DNA from: Sulfuricellaceae bacterium
Lineage (GTDB): Bacteria > Pseudomonadota > Gammaproteobacteria > Burkholderiales > Sulfuricellaceae
Direction: 5' to 3'
Length of the DNA stretch: 64,000 nt
Assembly: GCA_030690895.1 (NCBI GenBank)
Contig: JAUYFQ010000020.1
Span: 1-64,000 of the forward strand
The position numbers and the translations under genes are program-made. Positions 3,960 to 50,910 of the stretch are shown here, in pieces. Numbering within the stretch: position 1 is the stretch's first letter; each line of letters opens with the position of its first letter. The notes beneath the pieces are model-generated. The model did not search any database. It had not been told where the DNA came from and saw only the letters and a list, made by a program, of their open reading frames with translations.

Positions 3960-5111
3960 TTGTCAAATCAGGATGCGCCTTCTTTGTTCTCGACAGAATT
4001 TGAAATAGCCGTCCTCTGGGTCGGCGCTTCGGCGCTGGCAGCGATGCTGTCGCTCGCGGCGATGTTGCTGGGGCTTTTTCTGTGGCAGGCATATGGTCGC
4101 TGGCGCAGGGAGCGCGTGCTGGCGCGCTGGCGGCCGCTGTTCATGGCCTGCTTGTACGAAGAGGTGGCGAGCTGGCCTAACGGGCATAACCAAAAGGATA
4201 TGCCCGTTCCCCTCTCTCCAAACTCTCTCCCAGAGGGAGAGAGGGACGAAGGCTCGCTTTGCGAGTATCCGGTTAAAGCACACGGCAGCGCAGCGACCAG
4301 CGTACTTGAATTATGGCGTCACCTGCATGATTCGCTTGGCGCCGAGCAGGGGCGCCTGCTCGAACAGGCAGCCATGAAAGCCGGACTGCCCAAGATGGCG
4401 ATCAGCTTGCTGCAAGGTGCTTTAGTTAAAAATTTATGCCTGGGTGCGGAGGTGTCCGGTCGTTTGAAGCTAGTTGACGCTTGGGGTGAGCTGATCCGGC
4501 TTCTGGCACATCCTGACGTTGACGTGTCCAGCTTGGCGGCCATTGCCCTGAGCCGCATCGATACTCGTCGGGCGGCGCCTGTTCTGGTGCCGATGCTGGC
4601 CGATGGAGCGCGTTGGCAGCCGGTATTTGGGCGGGACGTGGCCGAGTCACTGCAGGGTGCGGAGGCTGAGTTTTCGGGGGTGATGCTTGCGCCGCATCAA
4701 TTGGAAATGCTTGATGCGATTGGGTCTGATCAAATCAGCCAAGCACTAAACGAAGTTCTTGATGCCCCGAAAGATGACGAGCAGCTGTCAACCGCGCTTC
4801 GCTTGAGTAAAACCCCCTCACTGCTGGAGAAAATTCACCCTCATGCCGGGCATTCGCAATGGTTTGTCCGGGTGCAGGCGGCCAATGCAATTGGCCGCTT
4901 GGGCAGCGAGAGGGATGTCCCGTTTCTGCTCCCCATGCTCGGCGACGCCTCCTGGTGGGTGCGCTACCGCGCAAGTGGGGCGCTGTCCGGTCTGCTTGGC
5001 CGGGATTTGGCGAGCATGGAGCAGATACGTGGAAACCAGGCCGATCCATTTGCCAGAGACATGCTCCAGCAAGTGATTGCGGAAATTGCCTTGAGCGGGG
5101 AGAAGCCATGA
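3960..5111 (+). CDS. Membrane-anchored HEAT-repeat protein
   Basis: The protein has one N-terminal transmembrane segment (about residues 16-40, IAVLWVGASALAAMLSLAAM...). A cytoplasmic region follows with HEAT/PBS-lyase-like helical repeats, seen in VDVSSLAAIALSRID, WFVRVQAANAIGRLG and WWVRYRASGALSGLLG. Function is unknown. It overlaps the next gene by 4 bp (ATGA), so the pair is probably translationally coupled, and HEAT/glycosyltransferase pairs of this kind recur in proteobacteria. The start is uncertain: a TTG at 3960 fits the promoter space left by the divergent gene, while an ATG at 3846 would run into that gene. Residues ~73-113 (about 4178-4300) are an in-frame palindromic insertion rather than HEAT sequence. 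Confidence 0.72.
   Translation: MSNQDAPSLFSTEFEIAVLWVGASALAAMLSLAAMLLGLFLWQAYGRWRRERVLARWRPLFMACLYEEVASWPNGHNQKDMPVPLSPNSLPEGERDEGSLCEYPVKAHGSAATSVLELWRHLHDSLGAEQGRLLEQAAMKAGLPKMAISLLQGALVKNLCLGAEVSGRLKLVDAWGELIRLLAHPDVDVSSLAAIALSRIDTRRAAPVLVPMLADGARWQPVFGRDVAESLQGAEAEFSGVMLAPHQLEMLDAIGSDQISQALNEVLDAPKDDEQLSTALRLSKTPSLLEKIHPHAGHSQWFVRVQAANAIGRLGSERDVPFLLPMLGDASWWVRYRASGALSGLLGRDLASMEQIRGNQADPFARDMLQQVIAEIALSGEKP
4178..4300. repeat. In-frame palindromic element inside the HEAT-repeat gene (copy A)
   Basis: Three hairpins lie in a row: AACGGGCATA at 4179-4188 with its complement at 4199-4208; CTCTCTCCC-aga-GGGAGAGAG at 4223-4243; and CTCGC-ttt-GCGAG at 4253-4265. The block is translated in frame as ...[19 protein letters not shown].... 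The same peptide pattern recurs in rnfG and nth. It interrupts otherwise helical protein sequence with no stop codon or frameshift. Confidence 0.85.
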
Positions 5112-6625
5112 CAGACCGTGCGCTCCACCTCGACCCGCGTCTGGGCGGAAATACATCTTCCGCCCGTGATGGGCAAACGGATGGTATGCCGGTAGAGGGC
5201 GTACCGGTTCACTTGCAACATGATCCAAGCCTGCTTTTCATGCCACAGCCGGAAATGGCCGTGCCCCAGGCCGAATTTACCTGGAGCGATATCCTGAGTG
5301 CATTCCAGACAATGGTGGCCGATGTCATTCCCTGGCTGATGTGGGCCGTGCTGTTTCTGTTTGTGATTCGTTATGCCGTGTTGCTGGTGAGCGGTTTTCT
5401 GGATGCGTTGCGGTACAAGCCGCTGTTAAAGATTCACCCGCATTCGCCACCAGTTAGCCTGATTGTCCCGCTAACAGGGCGAACCGCCAGCCTGCGAGCA
5501 TGGCTGACAGCGGCGCTGGAGCTGGACTATCCCGAATATGAAATTCTGCTCGTCAACGATGGCCTGGCCGACGACGAGTTGATGTCGGTCAAGGAAGATT
5601 ACGGTTTCGAGCGCTTCCCGGAAGCATATAGAGACCGTTTGCATACCAAGCAAGTGAGCGGCATTCACATCTCGGTTCGTGACAGCCGCCTGCGCTGGCT
5701 GGAGAAATGTCGTGGCGGTCGTGCAGATGCCATCAACGCTGCACTCAATTGCGCCCGCTTTCCACTGGTCTGTGTGCTGGATGTTCACCTGGTGTTCAAG
5801 GTCGATTTTCTGAGCCAGATGGCTGAACGGTATGCCCGTACTCCAGACGCCAAGGCGGTAATGACGCCCATCTGCGTGACTGAGGGTGTGGATGCCGGGT
5901 TTCTGGCGCACTGGCAGCAGGCCGATATCGGCCGCACTCTGGTTTTTGGCGGCATCAACAAAGCCGGGCTTGGATTGCGGCTGGCGGGCACGCCGGTGGT
6001 AGGCCTGTTTGATAAAGAATTGCTGGTTGCTGCGGGCGGATTCCGCAACGATGTACTCAACCCGGAAAACCATTGGGCGGTGGACTTGCAGAATGGCCTT
6101 TCCGGCAAACAATCTACCCGCCTGGCCTACGCGCCGGAACCGCTGGTATTCAGCCCTGCGTGCAAGACCCTGGGTGATCTGGGGCGCAAACATGCCGACA
6201 GGCAGCAGGCCTTGATGGAAAACCTGAATCTCAACCGGCGTATGGCCGGGCAAAGCCGACATGGCAACCGTCTGACTTACCTGTTCATGCTGGTCCTGGA
6301 AGGTTTTTGGCCCGCTATCGAACTGCTTGGATATGGAGCTGTGATTGTGTTGTGGCTGGTTGGACTGCTTTCCACTCAGACGACTGCACTCTTATTGGCG
6401 ATTGGGTTCGGGATGAGCATTTTGCCCGTTCTCGCTGGACTGTTGCTGGAATCTCATTTGTTTTATCCCCATGTCCGAGTTCAAGTCGTTTCAAAGCAGT
6501 TCATGGCGGCAGTAATGGAAGGCCTGGGCCTGCGTCTCCTCTCTGTATTCTGGTTCCTGCGGGGCTTGTTGCGCCATGAAGCCAAGTGGGGCCGAATAAG
6601 TAAAATTCTGGCGGTTTCAAAATGA
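5108..6625 (+). CDS. Membrane-bound family 2 glycosyltransferase
   Basis: This is a ~505-aa processive-type GT2 enzyme with a TM segment near residues 75-100 (VIPWLMWAVLFLFVIRYAVL). The GT-A domain starts at PPVSLIVPLTGR and contains the nucleotide-binding YEILLVNDG. Two or three TM segments follow near the C-terminus (YGAVIVLWLVGLL; LLLAIGFGMSILPVLAGLLL). The usual DxD motif reads CVLDVHLVF here, so the second Asp is replaced by His. The acceptor-site region is NHWAVDLQNGLSGK, which differs from the usual EDxDL. The ATG at 5108 overlaps the upstream stop (ATGA). The substrate cannot be told. Confidence 0.82.
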   Translation: MTDRALHLDPRLGGNTSSARDGQTDGMPVEGVPVHLQHDPSLLFMPQPEMAVPQAEFTWSDILSAFQTMVADVIPWLMWAVLFLFVIRYAVLLVSGFLDALRYKPLLKIHPHSPPVSLIVPLTGRTASLRAWLTAALELDYPEYEILLVNDGLADDELMSVKEDYGFERFPEAYRDRLHTKQVSGIHISVRDSRLRWLEKCRGGRADAINAALNCARFPLVCVLDVHLVFKVDFLSQMAERYARTPDAKAVMTPICVTEGVDAGFLAHWQQADIGRTLVFGGINKAGLGLRLAGTPVVGLFDKELLVAAGGFRNDVLNPENHWAVDLQNGLSGKQSTRLAYAPEPLVFSPACKTLGDLGRKHADRQQALMENLNLNRRMAGQSRHGNRLTYLFMLVLEGFWPAIELLGYGAVIVLWLVGLLSTQTTALLLAIGFGMSILPVLAGLLLESHLFYPHVRVQVVSKQFMAAVMEGLGLRLLSVFWFLRGLLRHEAKWGRISKILAVSK

Positions 6626-6824
6626 ATTCTTCCTTCCAAGAGTTCGTTCACGAGGCCATCAGTTAAGGCGCCTGCGGCTTTGTTGTCAAGCCCTAATAAC
6701 GCTGCAAAAATTTTGCAATCGCTGGAGCGTTGTGTGGGGCGTTCGGTGGATTTGTGATGTTGGCTAACTTAGCTAGAAGTAGTAAGCTACCCGGTACTAC
6801 ACAAACTTCTTTCAGGAGCTAATC

Positions 6825-7070
6825 ATGCAATGCAACATGCTTGAAGCCAAGAGCCAGCTTTCCAGGCTCGTGCAAGCCGCACTGGAGGGGGAAGATGTCA
6901 TCATCGCCAACAAGGGCGTTCCTGTCGTCAGGTTAGTCAAGATCGGCGCCCAAGGTTTTACGCGCAAGCCAGGCGCATGGGCCGAACTGCCCAAGGCAAA
7001 AGCCGATTGGGACTCACCGAAAACCAACGCTGCCATCGCCGATGAACTCACTGGCGGTGAATGGTCGTGA
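6825..7070 (+). CDS. Phd/YefM-family antitoxin
   Basis: An 81-aa protein. Its N-terminal half has the prevent-host-death fold (NMLEAKSQLSRLVQAALEGEDVIIANKGVPVVRLV), a DNA-binding antitoxin that represses its own operon. The tail after residue ~50 is the toxin-binding segment. It is preceded by a good ribosome binding site (CAGGAG) and overlaps the PIN toxin gene by 10 bp. A short inverted motif (AGCTA at 6771-6775 and 6785-6789) just upstream could be part of an operator, but it is weak. Confidence 0.88.
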   Translation: MQCNMLEAKSQLSRLVQAALEGEDVIIANKGVPVVRLVKIGAQGFTRKPGAWAELPKAKADWDSPKTNAAIADELTGGEWS

Positions 7071-7447
7071 GGCGATACCTGCTTGATACCCACCTGGTCT
7101 ATTGGTGGATGACCGCCGATGGCCGATTAGGCAAAGCCACGCAACACCTCATCGAAAATGCCGATATTGTCGTGAGCACTGCCAGCGTGTGGGAAATGGT
7201 GCTGAAAAATGGAAAAGGCAAATTACCTTTGCCGCAAGGCAGTCTGAGCGAACAACTGGAAGCGCAAGGCTTCGCCCTGCTCCCTATTCTGCCGCGCCAC
7301 ATCGATGTAGCACGGAGTCTGGCTTTCGTGCACGCCGATCCGTTCGACCGATTGATGATCGCGCAGGCCCACGATGAACGGTTGACGCTGTTAACGTGTG
7401 ACACGGCGATCCTGGGGCTGGGATTGGATGGGGTAGAGAAGGGGTGA
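7061..7447 (+). CDS. PIN-domain toxin (VapC-like RNase)
   Basis: A 128-aa PIN-domain protein, expected to be an Mg-dependent RNase held inactive by the overlapping Phd-type antitoxin. The acidic catalytic residues are in place: Asp in YLLDTHLVYWW, Glu in VSTASVWEMVLK, Asp in HADPFDRLMIAQA and Asp in LLTCDTAILGL. Expected full length for the family. It ends about 107 bp before purL and probably forms a two-gene operon with the antitoxin. Confidence 0.9.
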   Translation: MVVRRYLLDTHLVYWWMTADGRLGKATQHLIENADIVVSTASVWEMVLKNGKGKLPLPQGSLSEQLEAQGFALLPILPRHIDVARSLAFVHADPFDRLMIAQAHDERLTLLTCDTAILGLGLDGVEKG

Positions 7448-7554
7448 AAGAATGCCACAGCATCAGGTCGGTCGAATCCGCCTCATGATGTGGAGGGGCA
7501 AGGTAAATATCAGGTAAAATAACGCTTTTCCCTAGTTCTGCCCCGGATTTTCCC

Positions 7555-10500
7555 ATGGCCATCACCGTTTCCCTGCGCGGTCGCAACGCGCTTTCTCCTT
7601 TTCGTTTCGACAAGTTGATGCGCGCTTTGACTGAGGTCGCGCCGACTGTATCGCATCTTTATGCTGAATACTGGCATTTTGTTTCCCTGCCACGTGCACT
7701 GGATGCGGGCGAGACGAGCCGCATTGAGGAAATTCTGACTTATGGGCCGGCTTCTCAAGTGGAGGCGCCAGAGGGCGAGCTGTTGCTGGTATTTCCGCGT
7801 TTCGGGACGATTTCTCCCTGGTCTTCCAAGGCGACGGAGATTGCGAAGCATTGCGGGCTGGAACTGGTGGAGCGGATCGAGCGCGGGGTGGCGTTTCGTC
7901 TGCGTAAACAGGATGGAAGCGCGCTGACGGCGGATGAGAAGGCAGCCATCCTGCCGCTGCTTCATGACCGCATGACGGAAATCGTGTGCGGTGATTTTGA
8001 CCAGGCTCAGCGCCTGTTTGCCCATGTTGCGCCGCAAGCCTTGCGGAGCGTGGATGTGCTGGCGGGCGGCCGGGCGGCGCTGGATGAGGCGAATACGGGC
8101 TGGGGCTTGGCCTTGTCTGCCGATGAGATCGACTATCTGGTGGAAAACTTTACCCGCATCGGACGCAATCCGACCGATGTCGAGCTGATGATGTTCGCGC
8201 AGGCCAATTCAGAACATTGCCGTCACAAGATTTTCAACGCTGATTGGGTGATCGACGGGGAAATCCAGCCGCATTCCCTGTTCGGGATGATCCGCAATAC
8301 CCACGCCGTCAGCCCGGCGGGAACAGTGGTGGCGTATTCGGATAACTCCTCCGTGATCGAAGGCGCGCAGATCGAGCGTTTCTACCCGGATGCGGCCAGC
8401 AAGCGCTATCGCTACCGCAGCGAGATGACGCACATTTTGATGAAGGTCGAGACCCATAATCACCCGACTGCCATTTCGCCCTTTCCCGGCGCGGCGACTG
8501 GCTCTGGCGGCGAGATTCGCGATGAGGGCGCAACCGGCATCGGCTCGAAACCCAAGGCAGGCTTGTGCGGGTTTTCGGTTTCCAACCTCAATATTCCGGA
8601 TTTCGTGCAGCCATGGGAGCGCTACGTCCCTCTCCCTTTATGCCCTTTAGGGTACAACCCTCCCCCGCAGGACTTTCCCTCTCCCCAACCCTCCCCCGGG
8701 GGGGGAGGGGGCGAACGACAAGGGCGATTGTTTGATTTGGGGGCAAACGAGCACGCCGTTGGCGTGGCCAGGGAAACATACGGCAAACCTGGCCGTATCG
8801 CTTCCGCACTCCAGATCATGCTGGAAGGCCCAATTGGGGCGGCGGCATTCAACAATGAATTCGGTCGCCCAAATCTGGCGGGTTATTTCCGCACTTTTGA
8901 AGAACATGTGGCGGGCGAGATGCGCGGCTATCACAAGCCCATCATGCTGGCAGGCGGGGCGGGCAATATCGCCGAGCGGGACTCGTTCAAGAAAGAAGTC
9001 ACGCCCGGTGCCTTGCTGATTCAGTTGGGTGGCCCCGGCATGTTGATTGGCCTCGGCGGCGGCGCGGCTTCCAGCATGGATACCGGCTCGAACGCGGAGA
9101 ATCTGGATTTTGATTCGGTACAGCGTGGCAACCCGGAAATGCAGCGGCGCGCGCAGGAAGTGATCGACCGTTGCTGGCAACTGGGCGAGGCCAATCCTAT
9201 TCTGTCCATTCACGATGTCGGCGCTGGCGGCATTTCCAATGCCTTGCCGGAGCTGGTGGACGGTTCCGGGCGCGGCGGGCGCTTCCGCCTGCGCGATGTG
9301 CCTTCCGAAGAATCCGGCATGACGCCCATGCAGATCTGGTCGAACGAGTCGCAGGAACGCTATGTGCTGGCGATTGCGCCGGAAAGTCTTCCACTGTTTT
9401 CCGGTTTGTGCGAGCGCGAGCGCTGCCCTTATGCGGTGATTGGCGAAGCCACCGCCGCTGCCCATCTGGAAGTCTCCGACAGCCATTTCGGCAATAATCC
9501 CGTGGATATGGACATGAGCGTGCTGCTGGGCAAACCGCCGAAAATGACGCGCAATGTCAGCCGCGTCCAGCGCGATGCCCTTCCTTTTGAAACGGCTGAT
9601 TTGCGCCTGGATGACGCCATCTGGCGCGTGTTGCGCCTGCCGGTGGTGGGCGACAAGACTTTCCTGATCAGCATCGGCGACCGCACGGTGGGTGGTTTTA
9701 CCGCGCGTGACCAGTTTGTCGGCCCCTGGCAGACGCCGGTGGCGGATGTGGCGGTGACGACGATGGGCTACGATACGCTGCTAGGCGAGGCCTTCGCCAT
9801 GGGCGAGCGCGCACCGCTGGCGCTGCTGGACGCCCCCGCTTCGGGGCGCATGGCGATAGGCGAATCCCTGACCAATATCGCCGCTGCCCGAATCGAAAAA
9901 ATCGGTGACATCAAGCTTTCCGCCAACTGGATGGTTGCTGCCGGACACACCGGCGAGGATGCCGCGCTGTACGATACGGTTCAAACCGTCGGCATGGAGT
10001 TGTGCCCTGCGCTCGGGATCAGTATTCCGGTCGGCAAGGATTCCATGTCCATGAAGAGCGTGTGGACTGACGAGGGAGAACAAAAGTCCGTCACCGCGCC
10101 ACTGTCTCTGGTGATCACTGCCTTCGCGCCGGTTGTGGATGCGCGCATGATCCTGACGCCGCAATTGCGCGCCGATCAGGGCGAGAGCGACCTGATCCTG
10201 ATCGACTTGGGGCAAGGCAAATCGCGGTTGGGCGGCTCTGCGCTGGCGCAAGTTTACAAACAGGTGGGTGATGAACCGCCGGATGTCGTTTCTGCGACCC
10301 AACTCAAGGCATTTTTCGACACCATTCAAACCCTCAACCAGCAGGGTCTGTTGCTGGCCTACCATGACCGTTCCGATGGCGGGCTGTTCGTTACCCTGTG
10401 TGAAATGATGTTCGCGGGGCATGCTGGCGTGACGCTCGATGTGGGCGAGCTGTGCTACGAGAAAATTCGTGATGACGTCGAGCAGCGCGGCGAGGAAGAG

Positions 10501-11664
10501 CCTGAAATTCCAGAAGGCAGCTATTCCGAGCGTATTTTCCCGGTGCTGTTCAACGAGGAATTGGGTGCGGTGCTGCAAGTGCGCCGCAGCGACACCTCCG
10601 CCGTGATGCAGACCTTTTTTAACGCCGGGCTACGCAGCGAATTTTATGTGATCGGCAGCCTGAATGCGGATGACGCTTTGCGCATCGTGCGAAATGAAAG
10701 CGAGATTTTCAGCGCCAGCCGGGTCGATCTTCAACGCGCCTGGTCGGAAACGACCTATCACATGCAAAGCCTGCGCGATAACCCGAATTGCGCCCGGCAA
10801 GAGTTCGAGCGCATTCTGGATGCGTCTGACCCCGGCCTGCTGGCAGAGCCTGCATTCGACCTGAACGACAACATCGCCGCACCCTATATTGCAACCGGCG
10901 TGCGTCCGGCCATGGCGATCCTGCGCGAGCAGGGCGTGAACGGCGAAGTGGAAATGGCGGCGGCTTTCGATCGTGCCGGCTTCGATGCCGTCGATGTCCA
11001 CATGAGCGACATCATCTCAGGGCGGGTTTCGCTGGCTGGTTTCAAGGGATTGGCTGCTTGCGGCGGTTTTTCCTATGGCGACGTGCTGGGGGCAGGGGAG
11101 GGCTGGGCCAAGTCCATCCTTTTCAACAGCCGAGCGCGCGACGATTTTGAAGCCTTCTTCAGGCGTGCCGATACCTTCGCCCTTGGCGTGTGCAACGGCT
11201 GCCAGATGATGAGCAACCTGCACAGCATCATCCCCGGCGCCCAGAACTGGCCGCACTTCGTGCGCAACCGCTCCGAGCAGTTCGAAGCGCGTTTCGTGAG
11301 TGTGGAAATTCCAGAAAGCCCATCCCTGTTCTTCAATGGCATGGCGGGTAGCCGATTGCCCATCGTGGTGGCGCACGGCGAAGGCTATGCCGAGTTCGCC
11401 AGCGACGCGCAACGGCAAGCCGCTCAGGTGGCCTTGCGCTACGTCGATCACCGGGGGCAGGTAGCAACGACTTATCCGCTCAACCCCAATGGCTCGCCCG
11501 ACGGCATCACCGGCCTGACCACGCCGGATGGCCGCTTCACCATCATGATGCCGCACCCCGAGCGCGTGTTCCGCACGGTTCAGCACTCCTGGCACCCGGA
11601 TCACTGGGGTGAGGACGGCCCTTGGCTGCGCATGTTCCGCAATGCGAGGAAGTGGACTGCATGA
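7555..11664 (+). CDS. purL: Phosphoribosylformylglycinamidine synthase
   Basis: This is the fourth step of purine synthesis (FGAR + Gln + ATP to FGAM). It is the single-chain large form: an N-terminal PurS-like domain, a linker, two AIR-synthase-like ATP-binding halves ([65 protein letters not shown]), and a C-terminal glutaminase with the nucleophile Cys in [12 protein letters not shown] and the His/Glu of MPHPERVFR. At 1369 aa it is longer than the usual ~1295-1320. The excess is explained by a 52-codon in-frame insertion at 8623-8778, between [11 protein letters not shown] and [17 protein letters not shown], which are normally contiguous. It overlaps the acyltransferase gene by 4 bp. Confidence 0.97.
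8623..8778. repeat. 156-bp in-frame palindromic insertion within purL (copy D)
   Basis: This stretch encodes 52 residues rich in Pro/Gly ([14 protein letters not shown]..., [13 protein letters not shown]...) with no counterpart in PurL. It contains a C-run/G-run palindrome around 8688-8710 (CCCTCCCCC then GGGGGAGGG) and a CACGCC-gtt-GGCGTG hairpin at 8752-8766. The frame is kept and both flanks are normal PurL sequence with a Tyr codon at each junction. It is a longer and more diverged relative of the elements in rnfG, nth and the HEAT gene. Confidence 0.8.
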
Positions 11665-12785
11665 GTCAGGCAATAGAAAAAAAACCTGTCTCAAGCCGTT
11701 TTGCTCATGTGGATATTGTCAAGGCCGTCGCTTCGCAACTGATCGTATTGCATCACCTGGCATTTTACGGCCCCTTGTCGGATAGCCTGTTCAAACTCGC
11801 GCCGGAGATGGTTTCCTGGATGTATGACTACGCCCGCATGGCCGTTCAGGCCTTTCTGGTGGTGGGCGGCTTTCTCGCCGCTCGCAGCCTGGCGCCGCAG
11901 GGGAAGTTGCTGCTCGAACAACCGATCCGCTATCTCGCCAAACGCTATGTCCGACTGGTGTACCCGTTTGCCGTGGCCTTGTTGCTGGCGATTCTGGCAG
12001 CCTGGGCTGCCAGAATCATGACCGATCTGGAATTCGTGCCTGACAGCCCGAAGCTGAAGCAGCTATTGGCGCACCTTTTCCTGTTGCATAACGTACTGAA
12101 TGTGGACGCGCTATCAGCGGGCGTCTGGTATGTCGCCATCGATTTTCAACTGACTGCGCTGTTCTTGCTGCTGCTCTGGCTCAGCAGGAAATCCGAAATA
12201 ATGGCTGTAATGGCTGTTGCCAGCCTAGGCGTCGCCGCCCTGTTCTTTTTTAATCTGGATGCAAACTGGGATGTCTGGGCGATTTATTTCTTTGGCTCGT
12301 ATGCGCTGGGCGTAGCGGCCTTCTGGTCGAGCCGGGCGAGCATCCTGTGGCTGGCGGCGATTGTCCTGGCTGTCGTGCTCGCCATGCTGGCCGAATACCG
12401 CCTGCGCATCTTGGTCGCGCTGGCAGTCGCCCTGTTCCTGGCGCTGGCGCAACACGGCCTGTTTCATTCTCGCGCCCTTCAATGTATGCCGCACAGCGCC
12501 GTGATCCAGTATCTGAGCCGGACATCCTATTCGCTGTTTCTGGTGCATTTCGCGGTGCTCATGCTGGCGAATGCGGTTTTCGAGCGTTTCTTCGATGCCA
12601 GCCCATCGCTGGCGGTGATGCTGGCCTTGCTCGCCTGGGCAACGAGCATGGCCGCAGCCGACGTGTTTTATCGGCGGGTAGAGCGAGCCAATCCTGGGGT
12701 GCCTGAATTTATCCGCTCGGGTGCAGCCATGCTGTTTTCTTTTGTGAAACGAATTCCGGGGTGGTTGGCGGAGCAGCGCGGGTAA
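11661..12785 (+). CDS. Acyltransferase family 3 membrane protein
   Basis: A ~374-aa integral membrane protein of the acyltransferase-3 (OafA/YrhL/NodX) family, which moves acyl groups onto exported sugars or lipids. The conserved opening segment is [21 protein letters not shown], with the His typical of the active site. About ten hydrophobic segments follow (for example [17 protein letters not shown] and [18 protein letters not shown]), along with the C-terminal SYSLFLVHF motif. The ATG at 11661 overlaps the purL stop (ATGA), so the gene is probably co-transcribed with purL. No acceptor can be assigned. Confidence 0.85.
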
Positions 12786-29893: not shown

Positions 29894-30586
29894 ATGCCAG
29901 AAATGATCTCGGAATCAACCCGCCATACGCTCAAACTGGCCATTGTCCTGGCGGTATTTTCGCTGGTTGGAACGGTTCTGCTGGCACTGACTTTCGATGC
30001 CACCCGAGACAACATCGCAGCCAGCGAGAAAAAAGCCAAACTGGCGCTGATCGGCCAAATTCTGCCAAGTAGCTTGTACGATAACGATCTCCTGCAAGAT
30101 ACCCTTGTTCTGCCGCCCCAAGCAGAGTTGGGCGGGGTGGAATCAACGGCCTATCGGGCGCGCAAGGGAAACGAGCCCAGCGCAGTGGTGCTGGAGGCGA
30201 TTGCGCCGGACGGTTATTCCGGCAAGATCAAGCTCCTGATCGCGATTAAACAGAATGGTGAAATTTCCGGCGTGCGCGTCGTGGCGCACAAGGAAACGCC
30301 AGGTCTGGGCGACTACATCGAGGCGGTCAGAAGCGACTGGATCAAGCAGTTCGATGGCGCATCCCTGAAACAGATCGTCCTCTCTCCTAGCTCTCTCCCA
30401 GAGGGAGAGAGGGACGTAGGCTCGCTACGCGAGTTTCAGTCTAAGGACTGGAAGGTTAAAAAGGACGGTGGCCGCTTCGATTACATGGCGGGGGCGACCA
30501 TCACGCCACGTGCGGTGATCAAGGCGGTGCATAAGGCACTGGTGTTTTACGCGGCCAATCGGGAAAAGATATGGGAGGGCACATGA
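29894..30586 (+). CDS. rnfG: Rnf electron transport complex subunit G, with in-frame insert
   Basis: A 230-aa subunit with one N-terminal TM segment ([20 protein letters not shown]) and a periplasmic FMN-binding domain. The flavinylation site is [17 protein letters not shown]. Between SLKQ and [13 protein letters not shown], normally nearly contiguous, lie 23 extra residues from a palindromic element (30374-30442). The insert comes shortly before the FMN-attachment motif, so it should form a loop on the periplasmic surface. The ATG at 29894 follows the rnfD stop by 1 bp; an ATG at 29903 is an alternative. Confidence 0.94.
30374..30442. repeat. In-frame palindromic element inside rnfG (copy B)
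   Basis: 69 bp, with CTCTCTCCC-aga-GGGAGAGAG at 30391-30411 and CTCGC-tac-GCGAG at 30421-30433. It is translated as ...[19 protein letters not shown]..., in the same frame as the copies in the HEAT gene and nth. Flanking RnfG sequence is intact on both sides. Confidence 0.9.
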
Positions 30587-31267: not shown

Positions 31268-31963
31268 GTGAACGCAGCTTCCTTCTCTCCTAACTCTCTC
31301 CCAGCGGGAGAGAGGGACGCAGTCTCGCTGTGCGAGTGTCACGTTAATAGCAGGGAGATTTTTTCCCGTTTTCAAGTAGCCAATCCACACCCCAAGACAG
31401 AATTGGTCTATCAGTCACCCTTTGAATTGCTGGTAGCGGTTCTGCTCTCTGCTCAGGCAACCGACAAGGGCGTTAACAAAGCCACTGCCAGGCTGTTTCC
31501 TGTCGCCAATACGCCGGAAACCATGCTGTCACTAGGCCTGGAGCGATTAAAGGATTACATCAGCACGATAGGTCTCTACAACAGCAAGGCGCGCCACCTG
31601 ATGGAAACCTGCGCGATGCTGGTCGAACTGCATGGCGGCGAAGTGCCTGCACAGCGCGAGGCATTGGAAAAACTGCCTGGCGTCGGGCGCAAAACTGCCA
31701 ACGTTATCCTCAATACTGCTTTCGGTCAGCCCACCATGGCAGTCGACACGCATATTTTTCGCGTTGCCAACCGTATTGGCCTGGCGCCTGGAAAAACTGT
31801 GCTGGAAGTGGAAAAAAAACTGCTCAAGGTCATCGCGCCGGAATTCATGCAACACGCTCACCACTGGCTGATTCTGCATGGCCGTTACACCTGCAAGGCG
31901 CGCAAGCCATCGTGTGGGGAATGCCTGATTCGGGATTTGTGCGAATTCAAGGATAAAACCTGA
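31268..31963 (+). CDS. nth: Endonuclease III (DNA glycosylase/AP lyase)
   Basis: This base-excision repair enzyme removes oxidised pyrimidines. The helix-hairpin-helix LPGVGRKTANVI carries the catalytic Lys, the catalytic Asp is in AVDTHIFRV, and the C-terminal [4Fe-4S] ligands are C-x6-C-x2-C-x5-C in CKARKPSCGECLIRDLC. The family normally begins MN-(K/S)REIFSRL. Here a GTG at 31268 gives VN, then 25 residues from a palindromic element, then SREIFSRF, so the element seems to have inserted after codon 2. An upstream ATG-like start inside rnfE is unlikely. It directly follows rnfE, as in many proteobacteria. Confidence 0.95.
   Translation: MNAASFSPNSLPAGERDAVSLCECHVNSREIFSRFQVANPHPKTELVYQSPFELLVAVLLSAQATDKGVNKATARLFPVANTPETMLSLGLERLKDYISTIGLYNSKARHLMETCAMLVELHGGEVPAQREALEKLPGVGRKTANVILNTAFGQPTMAVDTHIFRVANRIGLAPGKTVLEVEKKLLKVIAPEFMQHAHHWLILHGRYTCKARKPSCGECLIRDLCEFKDKT
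31274..31348. repeat. In-frame palindromic element at the N-terminus of nth (copy C)
   Basis: 75 bp, with CTCTCTCCC-agc-GGGAGAGAG at 31294-31314 and CTCGC-tgt-GCGAG at 31324-31336. It reads AASFSPNSLPAGERDAVSLC... in the same frame as copies A and B. Its hairpins lie directly after the presumed start codon, where they could affect translation. Confidence 0.9.
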
Positions 31964-49716: not shown

Positions 49717-50793
49717 ATGGCACTTAACCCGCGACTGAATGACCCTGACCGCCCCCTGGTCAGCATGCTCATATTCAACTACAACTATGGCCGCTACCTG
49801 CGCGAGTGCTTCGACAGCGTGCTGGCTCAGACCTATGACAACATCGAAATCAATTTTTCCGATAATGCTTCCACCGACGATTCCTGGGAAATTGCACTGG
49901 AATACCAGAAACGCTACCCGAGCACCATTTTCATTGCACGTAACAGACAGAATTTCGGGACCGATGCCAATTTCAAAAATTGCGCTATTAACGCCCGGGG
50001 CAAATATTTTGTGGAGCTATGCTCCGACGATGCACTCCTGCCGGATTTCACCAGAATCTGCATCAAAGCTCTTGAGTCGAATCTGGATGCCGGTTTTGCA
50101 CTAGTCCATCGCACGATCCTCGACGAAAATGGTAAGCGGATAGAAGAGCCCCCTTTTTACAATCAGACCTGCAAAATCCCGGGTGCAGCACAAGCGGCTG
50201 TCTACATGATGGCCGCCGTCAATCCTGCTGTTACGCAAATCATGTACCGAAAAATGATGTCTCAGGACAAATCAGTTAGTGGTGGATTGGGCGCGCGGTA
50301 TTACGGCACGCGCATTATGGATTTCCATATATGTTGTGAGCATCCCATTGTGTACATCAAGACCCCACTAATGCTGCACCGTCTGCACCTTCTTAATGAC
50401 TCCTTCCGTGCAGCCGACAATATGATGGAAGTCATCGGCCCTTATGTACTTAATCTCCAATTCGTCGACATGGCCAGACCCTATGGCCACCAAGAAGTAG
50501 TTGATCGTTTGCCCGCCTCGGTTGAGAAGATTGCCCGCTTGGCCCTGCGCTACAGCGTACGCGCCCTGATTTCCGGCAGCGAAAGGAATGCGCTCAAATA
50601 TTTTCATTTGTCCGCAGCCTTCTTTCCTGAAATCGTGGAGGATGTTATCTTCAACAAACTCACTAGCTACTGGATGGCTGATGCGGATGAAAAAAAACGA
50701 TTACTAGATGGCTTCCAATCCGAATCCAATCTGGTAACAAGAACCATCTCCTATGATCCACCTGTCGGCAGTATTCTCATTTCATTAACGTGA
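49717..50793 (+). CDS. Family 2 glycosyltransferase
   Basis: A 358-aa soluble GT-A enzyme. It opens with PLVSMLIFNYNYGRYLRECFDSVLAQTYDNIEINFSDNASTDDSW, and the metal-binding region is VELCSDDALLPDF. The C-terminal half is variable (IKALESNLDAGFALVHRTIL...). Adds a sugar to an unknown acceptor. It stands alone, flanked by repeat elements on both sides. Confidence 0.88.
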   Translation: MALNPRLNDPDRPLVSMLIFNYNYGRYLRECFDSVLAQTYDNIEINFSDNASTDDSWEIALEYQKRYPSTIFIARNRQNFGTDANFKNCAINARGKYFVELCSDDALLPDFTRICIKALESNLDAGFALVHRTILDENGKRIEEPPFYNQTCKIPGAAQAAVYMMAAVNPAVTQIMYRKMMSQDKSVSGGLGARYYGTRIMDFHICCEHPIVYIKTPLMLHRLHLLNDSFRAADNMMEVIGPYVLNLQFVDMARPYGHQEVVDRLPASVEKIARLALRYSVRALISGSERNALKYFHLSAAFFPEIVEDVIFNKLTSYWMADADEKKRLLDGFQSESNLVTRTISYDPPVGSILISLT

Positions 50794-50795
50794 AA

Positions 50796-50910
50796 CTCGC
50801 AAAGCGAGCCTAAATTTCCCCCTCTCCCTTTGGGGGAGGGCTGGGGTGGGGGAAACGGTCATGGCGAAGTGCTGTTTCATATTTTTGGGCGGTACTTTGC
50901 CATGACCGTT
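50796..50910. repeat. G/C-run palindromic element plus 17-bp inverted repeat (copy E, intergenic)
   Basis: Immediately after the glycosyltransferase stop, ACTCGCAAAGCGAGC and CCCCCTCTCCCTTTGGGGGAG (split hairpins) resemble the elements inside coding genes. Next to it, 50854-50870 and 50894-50910 form a 17-bp inverted repeat with one mismatch. The remaining ~170 bp to the next gene hold a short open frame I do not believe is coding. Confidence 0.65.

Follow-up and report, generated by a model that had tools for sequence, protein, structure and literature searches.

The purL locus and its insertion

The window, a stretch of 64,000 nt at the start of contig JAUYFQ010000020.1, belongs to a Sulfuricellaceae genome (GCA_030690895.1). 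It comes as a 186-contig bin, 97.9% complete and with 6.4% contamination. The window contains purL and several palindromic repeats (Table 1). Besides purL, the assembly gave only a 41-aa repeat-coded peptide as a PurL match. The initial annotation described an in-frame insertion of 52 residues in purL, and this was borne out by the open frame, the exact codon span and the absence of the insertion from sister genomes. The insertion lies between PWER and YGKP. Conserved flanking sequence was found from residue 346 onward on the left and from residue 409 onward on the right. An alignment with orthologues, as suggested in that annotation, showed the insertion in this genome and its absence from six of seven congeneric ones. 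In these six genomes, the stretch from E to Y reads GNY, GSY or GDY. The net gain was 51 residues or 153 nt, calculated from 53 residues between E and Y here versus 2 in the six congeneric genomes. Alignment with Salmonella PurL (PDB 1t3t and 4r7g) stopped at residue 356 and resumed at 407, leaving the intervening part without a counterpart. The C-runs, G-runs and the CACGCC-GTT-GGCGTG motif reported earlier are present within the insertion.

Table 1. Coordinates of purL, the parts of its insertion and other repeat copies in the window.
Position	Strand	Feature	Basis or remark
7555..11664	+	purL (phosphoribosylformylglycinamidine synthase)	One intact ORF, 1369 aa; sole full match in the genome
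8623..8778	+	Insertion of 52 codons (Y357-T408) in the PWE-YGKP loop	Comparison with sister genomes and Salmonella structures
8628..8666	+	Left C-rich double arm of a putative older Y-like element, CCCTCTCCC ... CCCTCCCCC, interrupted by mini-palindrome Z	Assignment to an older element is interpretive
8637..8655	+	Mini-palindrome Z, TTTATGCCC-TTTA-GGGTAC	Sequence
8676..8738	+	Full-length Y, a palindromic repeat of two hairpins	Y-model score of 63.5 bits
8736..8750	+	TTTGGGGGCAAACGA, probably what remains of the right side of the older Y-like element	Interpretive
8752..8766	+	CACGCC-GTT-GGCGTG hairpin	Sequence
4211..4276	+	X copy in frame in an ORF, with HEAT repeats following the copy	Model hit, Pfam
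30379..30444	+	X copy read in frame within an RnfG/RsxG-like gene (FMN_bind)	Pfam domain spans the copy
31283..31347	+	X copy at the N-terminus of an ORF resembling endonuclease III (HhH-GPD), possibly ahead of the true start	Model hit, Pfam
50785..50845	-	X/Y-like copy, no long open frame	34.3 bits with Y, 44.4 with X

The insertion apparently consists of a Y element nested within an older Y-like element, and the arrangement of arms and remnants suggests that the older element came first and Y followed. A similar order of arm, Z, Y and right part was found in genome G010 (L225). Z-like motifs within C-rich arms were also detected at two other loci of this genome (L232 and L222), in G004 (L230 and L266) and at the same G010 locus. 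The Y core has a 93% identical copy of 58 nt elsewhere in the genome (blastn, E 2.3e-18), so the repeat nature of the insertion is not due to chance. At least 39 genome matches to the insert core were obtained with blastn, a lower bound from 37 scored candidates among 101 found at first look. The insert DNA had one weak partial match in the plasmid collection, in Halomonas. Scanning of viral contigs with the arm pattern returned 62 stretches. Rfam gave no match within positions 4000-12000 of the window.

Palindrome families X and Y

Two dispersed palindrome families were identified in the genome, X with about 76 bp and Y with about 62 bp. The Y consensus begins with TCCCCCTCCCCAACCCTCCCCCGGAGGGAGAGGGGGCAATCGTGAAGGGCGATTG and contains two hairpins. 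Consensus folding was better than that of shuffled sequences for both families, with z -2.42 for Y and z -3.65 for X. Family X held at least 40 matches in the genome, and Y was represented by at least 26 distinct near-complete copies of 45 bits or more. The census of copies covers the fetched stretches, comprising 20 stretches, the X loci and the window. L147 and L249 are one place and were counted once; L141 repeats a window copy and was left out. With the Y model, the three X copies of the window scored 19-25 bits versus 45-66 bits for near-complete Y copies, and the low scores mark X and Y as relatives, not as one family. The insertion had been proposed to be a composite or older member of the family of three copies A-C, which were probably those at 4213, 30381 and 31284. 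It is apparently composite, but A-C belong to family X and the purL core to the sister family Y. By eye, Y was nested in X at five places (L234, L239, L246, L248 and L249).

Ten of the 26 Y copies interrupt genes in frame, as judged by Pfam matches that either flank the copy on each side or span it. Hosts were purL, cysS, murC, polA, glgB, an ACR_tran pump, a hybrid kinase with an Hpt match under Pfam's cut-off, a Phage_tail_S gene and two MmeI-type genes. For purL, cysS and murC, the comparison was made with orthologues, from which the copies are absent; the other hosts were assessed with Pfam only. Three further copies showed a one-sided Pfam match (L234:6661, L241:3011 and L250:1434). The other 13 were at most about 65 codons from an ORF end or had no long ORF. 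The polA site is a variable linker in relatives, by eye without a clear repeat. In family X, two of the 33 copies with at least 60 bits interrupt Pfam-supported genes, FMN_bind and DUF1800, and an FtsX gene is a probable host. The FMN_bind match across the copy in the window comprised 110 residues covering the 77-position profile. Two weaker X copies were located in an epimerase and an FGGY kinase. At L232 (1490-2836), murB carries a composite palindrome N-terminally and a CTCACTCC-type heptamer-like stretch within the gene.

The PurL loop in homologues and family genomes

The loop holding the insertion is the main insertion place of PurL, with a median of 3 residues and at least 5 extra residues in 37 of 109 homologues. 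This was the highest count among the ten most length-variable PurL places listed; one other place was more variable, through deletions. L126, in which no loop was found, was left out of the comparison. The initial annotation took PurL to be continuous at this site in other bacteria. The default is 3-4 residues, but in view of the 37 homologues with extra residues, PurL is not always continuous here. The insertion itself is not conserved in distant PurL proteins, as Burkholderiaceae and Oxalobacteraceae have loops of 15-22 residues that look different from it by eye. The PurL tree placed this lineage with the betaproteobacteria, and the named Gallionella and Sideroxydans rows formed a separate clade.

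Among the family genomes, 21 of 22 had purL; G019 was left out with no purL, cysS or murC containing the site. Based on an explicit rule, the purL loop was bare (3 residues) in ten genomes. It comprised period-7 heptamers in six (G007, G012, G013, G014, G016 and G020) and perfect 8-bp palindromes in three (G000, G010 and G015). The loop of G018 was unclassified by the rule, and that of G009 was recognised by eye as a decayed palindrome. Heptamer repeats are the subject of an earlier study, as far as its available text indicates (PMC4692102). TAYGG was present at both edges of the heptamer inserts in purL of G007, G016 and G020, either as a short target duplication or merely as repeated Tyr-Gly codons. 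Within the family, 21 of 22 genomes contained a strict palindrome pattern, compared with 11 of 39 outside it, and the reversed control of this pattern gave 0-10 hits per genome. The heptamer pattern was detected in 20 of 22 and 5 of 39 genomes, with a reversed control that also matches heptamers and is not clean.

On a tree of PurL, MurC and CysS, the 19 rule-labelled rows required seven changes, and the distinction of bare versus long required six. Labels assigned by eye required nine changes in 22 rows, and the four palindrome rows required four. Bare, heptamer and palindrome labels were hardly clustered on the tree, with 11 changes versus a mean of 12.4 in shuffles and values as low in 41 of 200. 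Individual gains and losses at the purL loop are indistinguishable on this tree.

The murC and cysS loops behave like the purL loop. In MurC, the segment just N-terminal to DDYGHHP held 36-78 residues in 11 of 20 genomes versus the usual 17-18, and ten of these 11 long loops contained perfect palindromes. The CysS loop of 20 genomes contained heptamers in six, palindromes in two and longer but unclassified sequence in three. These MurC and CysS counts leave out G019, G020 and the second murC of G004 (L370), which carries an insert. The cysS loop of G001 (L330) comprised 60 residues of a different inverted-repeat class, by eye unlike Y.

Folding, open frames and structure models

Folding of the purL insert was no better than that of shuffled sequences (161 nt, z -0.40). 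No folding excess was found for its Y part (z -0.69) or for 8741-8778, the stretch with CACGCC-GTT-GGCGTG (z -0.15). Open frames were no more common than in shuffles, with 4.58 versus 4.64 of six frames for Y and 2.61 versus 2.47 for X. Coding compatibility thus follows from base composition, with no sign of selection for compatibility with protein. Since its folding resembles that of shuffles and open frames track composition, the insertion looks tolerated rather than functional. A first structure model had a mean pLDDT of 57.1, with low confidence at the insert region including native residues. The second model reached a mean pLDDT of 74.7; its residues 151-289, comprising the insert (207-259) and native flanks, were below 50. 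L094 was left out of the alignment for this second model. Tolerance in the essential purL had been considered notable. It is less so because the loop takes extra residues in many lineages, but the in-frame, repeat-derived nature of the insertion in an essential gene stands, and it is not conserved protein.

DUF559 nuclease genes near palindromes

At L241 (G000:C87:10700-15000), an MmeI-type restriction gene contained five Y-like copies in one frame, with a DUF559 domain between two of them. DUF559 was examined as a partner of the palindromes because of this arrangement. The domain matched PDB 3hrl, an 'Endonuclease-Like Protein'. Across 61 genomes, 27 had both palindromes and DUF559, 5 palindromes only, 4 DUF559 only and 25 neither (Fisher p 2e-8). 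The 39 genomes outside the family gave 8, 3, 4 and 24, respectively (p 9e-4). In both sets, the DUF559 cut-off of E <1e-20 was set once the list was known. When all DUF559 matches at E 0.001 were included, the numbers were 28, 4, 10 and 19 of 61 (p 2e-5) and, outside the family, 9, 2, 10 and 18 of 39 (p 0.012). These Fisher tests ignore the relatedness of the genomes. G007 and G008 contained palindromes and gave no DUF559 match. In G000, one DUF559 was found beside dozens of palindromes.

The best DUF559 locus from each of 30 genomes was scanned, representing 30 of the 62 matches listed. Hits to the Y/X models (at least 15 bits) lay at most 200 nt from DUF559 at 23 of the 30 loci, on both sides in 13, and seven loci had no such hit nearby. 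Hit density was 38-fold higher near DUF559, with 54 hits in 12 kb versus 9 in the 76 kb further out. Control flanks, counted over their full fetched length, showed hits at 2 of 20 RAYT, 2 of 22 polA and 1 of 20 cysS loci, and at 5 of 30 PurL loci, which include the palindrome-bearing purL genes themselves. DUF559 loci of other families had Y/X-model hits in nine of 11 cases. The nearest element was inverted upstream in 12 of 17 and forward downstream in 14 of 19 cases, and both held together in 7 of 13. Inverted ends at DUF559 are a tendency, not a rule.

A rule independent of the models, which required a perfect stem of 8 bp rich in C or G at most 150 nt from the gene, was satisfied by 25 of 30 DUF559 loci of relatives. 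The hairpins numbered 51 versus 1.0 in shuffles and 18 in the 79 kb further out. Among control genes, the rule held for 0 of 15 polA, 1 of 19 cysS, 0 of 27 purL and, with approximate positions, 1 of 16 RAYT. The five DUF559 loci that failed were those of G014, G000, G036, G049 and G016. The single DUF559 of G000, one of these five, had borders that the Y model scored at 30.1 and 33.8 bits. Either a rule hairpin or a Y/X-model hit was present at 28 of the 30 loci, and neither in G036 and G016. Five loci (L460, L468, L469, L470 and L471) showed DUF559 with near hairpins and no Y/X-model hit, which indicates palindromes of other sequence there.

Ten plasmid stretches with DUF559 were picked by hand among 40 listed of 45 records. 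Rule hairpins were present at seven of them, four from Azospirillum, two from Deinococcus and one from Sphingomonas, with ten hairpins versus 0.3 in shuffles. Some Azospirillum loci look like one locus across strains, with a common downstream hairpin, so the independent cases are fewer than seven. One Deinococcus, the Methylobacterium and the Picosynechococcus locus failed the rule. The latter (L482, plasmid pAQ6, 20241-22105) was by eye bordered by CCCCTAAATCCCC-type palindromes and was not counted. All three Deinococcus DUF559 genes (L475, L477 and L479) adjoin hydroxyphenylacetate (hpa) genes or their neighbours. A search with DUF559 against phages gave four records.

DUF559 was also found within genes. 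Based on Pfam, it was located in frame inside the MmeI-type gene of G000, a type ISP restriction gene of G004 and an asparagine-synthase-like (asnB-like) gene of G040. It split the N-terminal domain of a radical-SAM gene in G005 and G001, and in G055 this domain resumed past DUF559 at the contig end. In G058 it followed a DnaG-type region, and in G054 it followed TatD. Alignment of the G040 protein with PDB 7ylz broke off at chain residue 90 and resumed at 94; the G040 protein has 246 residues, including DUF559, at this point. The borders of these units inside genes read as palindrome-coded peptides, e.g., SPSPSGGGVGEG and SPPAPLPLAGEG.

Origin of the insertion

The purL insert is very probably tolerated repeat DNA, carried in frame by a permissive loop. 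A dispersed palindromic Y, apparently nested in an older element of like kind, would have entered the length-variable PurL loop, and the 52 codons would be repeat DNA read as protein. The insertion may have survived because the frame was kept, no stop was added and the loop tolerates extra residues, and it is presumably neutral or nearly so. It is improbable that the loop was lengthened for a function, with repeats serving as raw material for a segment of PurL used in regulation or interaction. The loops of 9-22 residues in other lineages have a non-repeat look and the loop was refilled repeatedly in the family, as this explanation would have it, but inserts of close relatives differ in sequence, length and class, and 3 residues suffice in ten of 21 family genomes. 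Palindromic inserts at the same place in G009, G010 and G015 could point to sequence inherited from the family ancestor. However, all four palindrome rows have palindrome-free sisters (four changes, labels by eye) and the four inserts differ in length and content, which makes common descent very unlikely. Equally little credence is given to an assembly or binning artefact in which a repeat was wrongly joined into purL. Repeats are where assemblers fail, and the bin has 186 contigs and 6.4% contamination. Against this, both flanks belong to the same gene in one frame over more than 300 residues. The net length is also divisible by three, and at the same codon other genomes have different repeats.

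The movement of the palindromes by REP-associated tyrosine transposases (RAYTs) is unlikely. Y1_Tnp matches were present in 20 of 22 family genomes, and in G008 a Y copy lay about 200 nt from one weak match. On the other hand, only two of the 20 fetched RAYT loci had a Y hit, L263 and L266 among six RAYT loci inspected for repeats have their own GTAG-type repeats, and G013 and G007 had Y matches and no Y1_Tnp match. As the partner of the palindromes, RAYT was set aside on linkage. For DUF559, linkage, co-occurrence and insertions of whole units suggest that it spreads the palindromes, which would be nuclease-less partners of the DUF559 gene. This is less sure than the repeat origin of the insertion. 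Speaking against it are the palindromes of G007 and G008, where DUF559 had no match, the seven DUF559 loci with no model hit nearby, the two nearest elements being inverted to each other in only 7 of 13 cases, and the single DUF559 of G000, which failed the hairpin rule. By analogy with RAYT/REP, few nuclease genes and many nuclease-less repeats would fit a DUF559 element. Tentatively, and with somewhat more doubt than confidence, DUF559 genes and their bordering C/G-rich palindromes are proposed to make up a separate class of mobile elements that occurs in at least two phyla. Copies with the nuclease, and the far more common palindromes lacking it, would land in frame in genes and survive in permissive loops such as those of PurL, MurC and CysS. 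The purL insert would then be a nested nuclease-less member.

Comparison with known systems

Inteins and homing endonuclease insertions bring a nuclease ORF into host genes in frame. The DUF559 nuclease frame is likewise found in frame within host genes. Unlike inteins, the ten DUF559 ORFs scanned had no Pfam splicing domain, and the unit is bordered by palindrome-coded peptides. The RAYT/REP system resembles the present one in combining a short palindrome family with one DNA-processing gene bordered by palindromes, but the linked gene here is DUF559 and not a Y1 transposase.

Palindromes inside genes are already known, from Rickettsia (PMC10969869) and as intragenic REPs (PMC3733652), according to the available parts of these reports. 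In the open-licence literature, no report was found of this lineage, of the nested stack, of PurL, MurC or CysS loops refilled by different repeat classes, or of the DUF559 link. The available text on intragenic REPs describes GTAG and CGTC superfamilies in several phyla, short high-copy palindromes coding 20-82 residues, with DNA polymerase I among the hosts and the betaproteobacterium Thauera among the carriers (PMC3733652). According to the same text, they are possibly neutral in loops, and two Xanthomonas species have recB interrupted at roughly the same position. The palindromes described here share with them the short, high-copy form and the position within genes. The Y consensus differs from GTAG REPs in having no GTAG tag, and Y was present at two of 20 RAYT loci. 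CGTC REPs, in the description available, have a terminal CGTC, an 8-9 bp stem starting with A/T pairs and a CCA-type tail (PMC3733652), and Y does not fit this stem and tail. In the purL insert, CGTC occurs before the outer arm only. In family X, CGTC is on the other strand beside the stem, with no A/T start.

Rickettsia palindromic elements (RPE) are about 150 bp long and form ten families, with 44 integrations in R. conorii genes, as given in the available text (PMC10969869). The repeats described here resemble RPE, as far as that text describes them, as dispersed palindromes in frame within unrelated genes. A hairpin-capable unit (consensus), many dispersed copies in and between genes, in-frame positions in conserved genes and absence from orthologues were all found. 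A betaproteobacterial family is thereby added to the lineages with palindromes inside genes, and the inserts amount to repeated experiments of nature on where an essential enzyme can accommodate added peptide. Should the DUF559 link be true, it would provide a candidate mobilising enzyme for untagged palindromic repeats and a role for a widespread 'domain of unknown function', both directly testable. The likeness to RPE is one of description, and the lineage, betaproteobacterial in the PurL tree, and the shorter unit are different. Nested stacks, one loop refilled by palindromes or heptamers and the putative link to DUF559 go beyond RPE.
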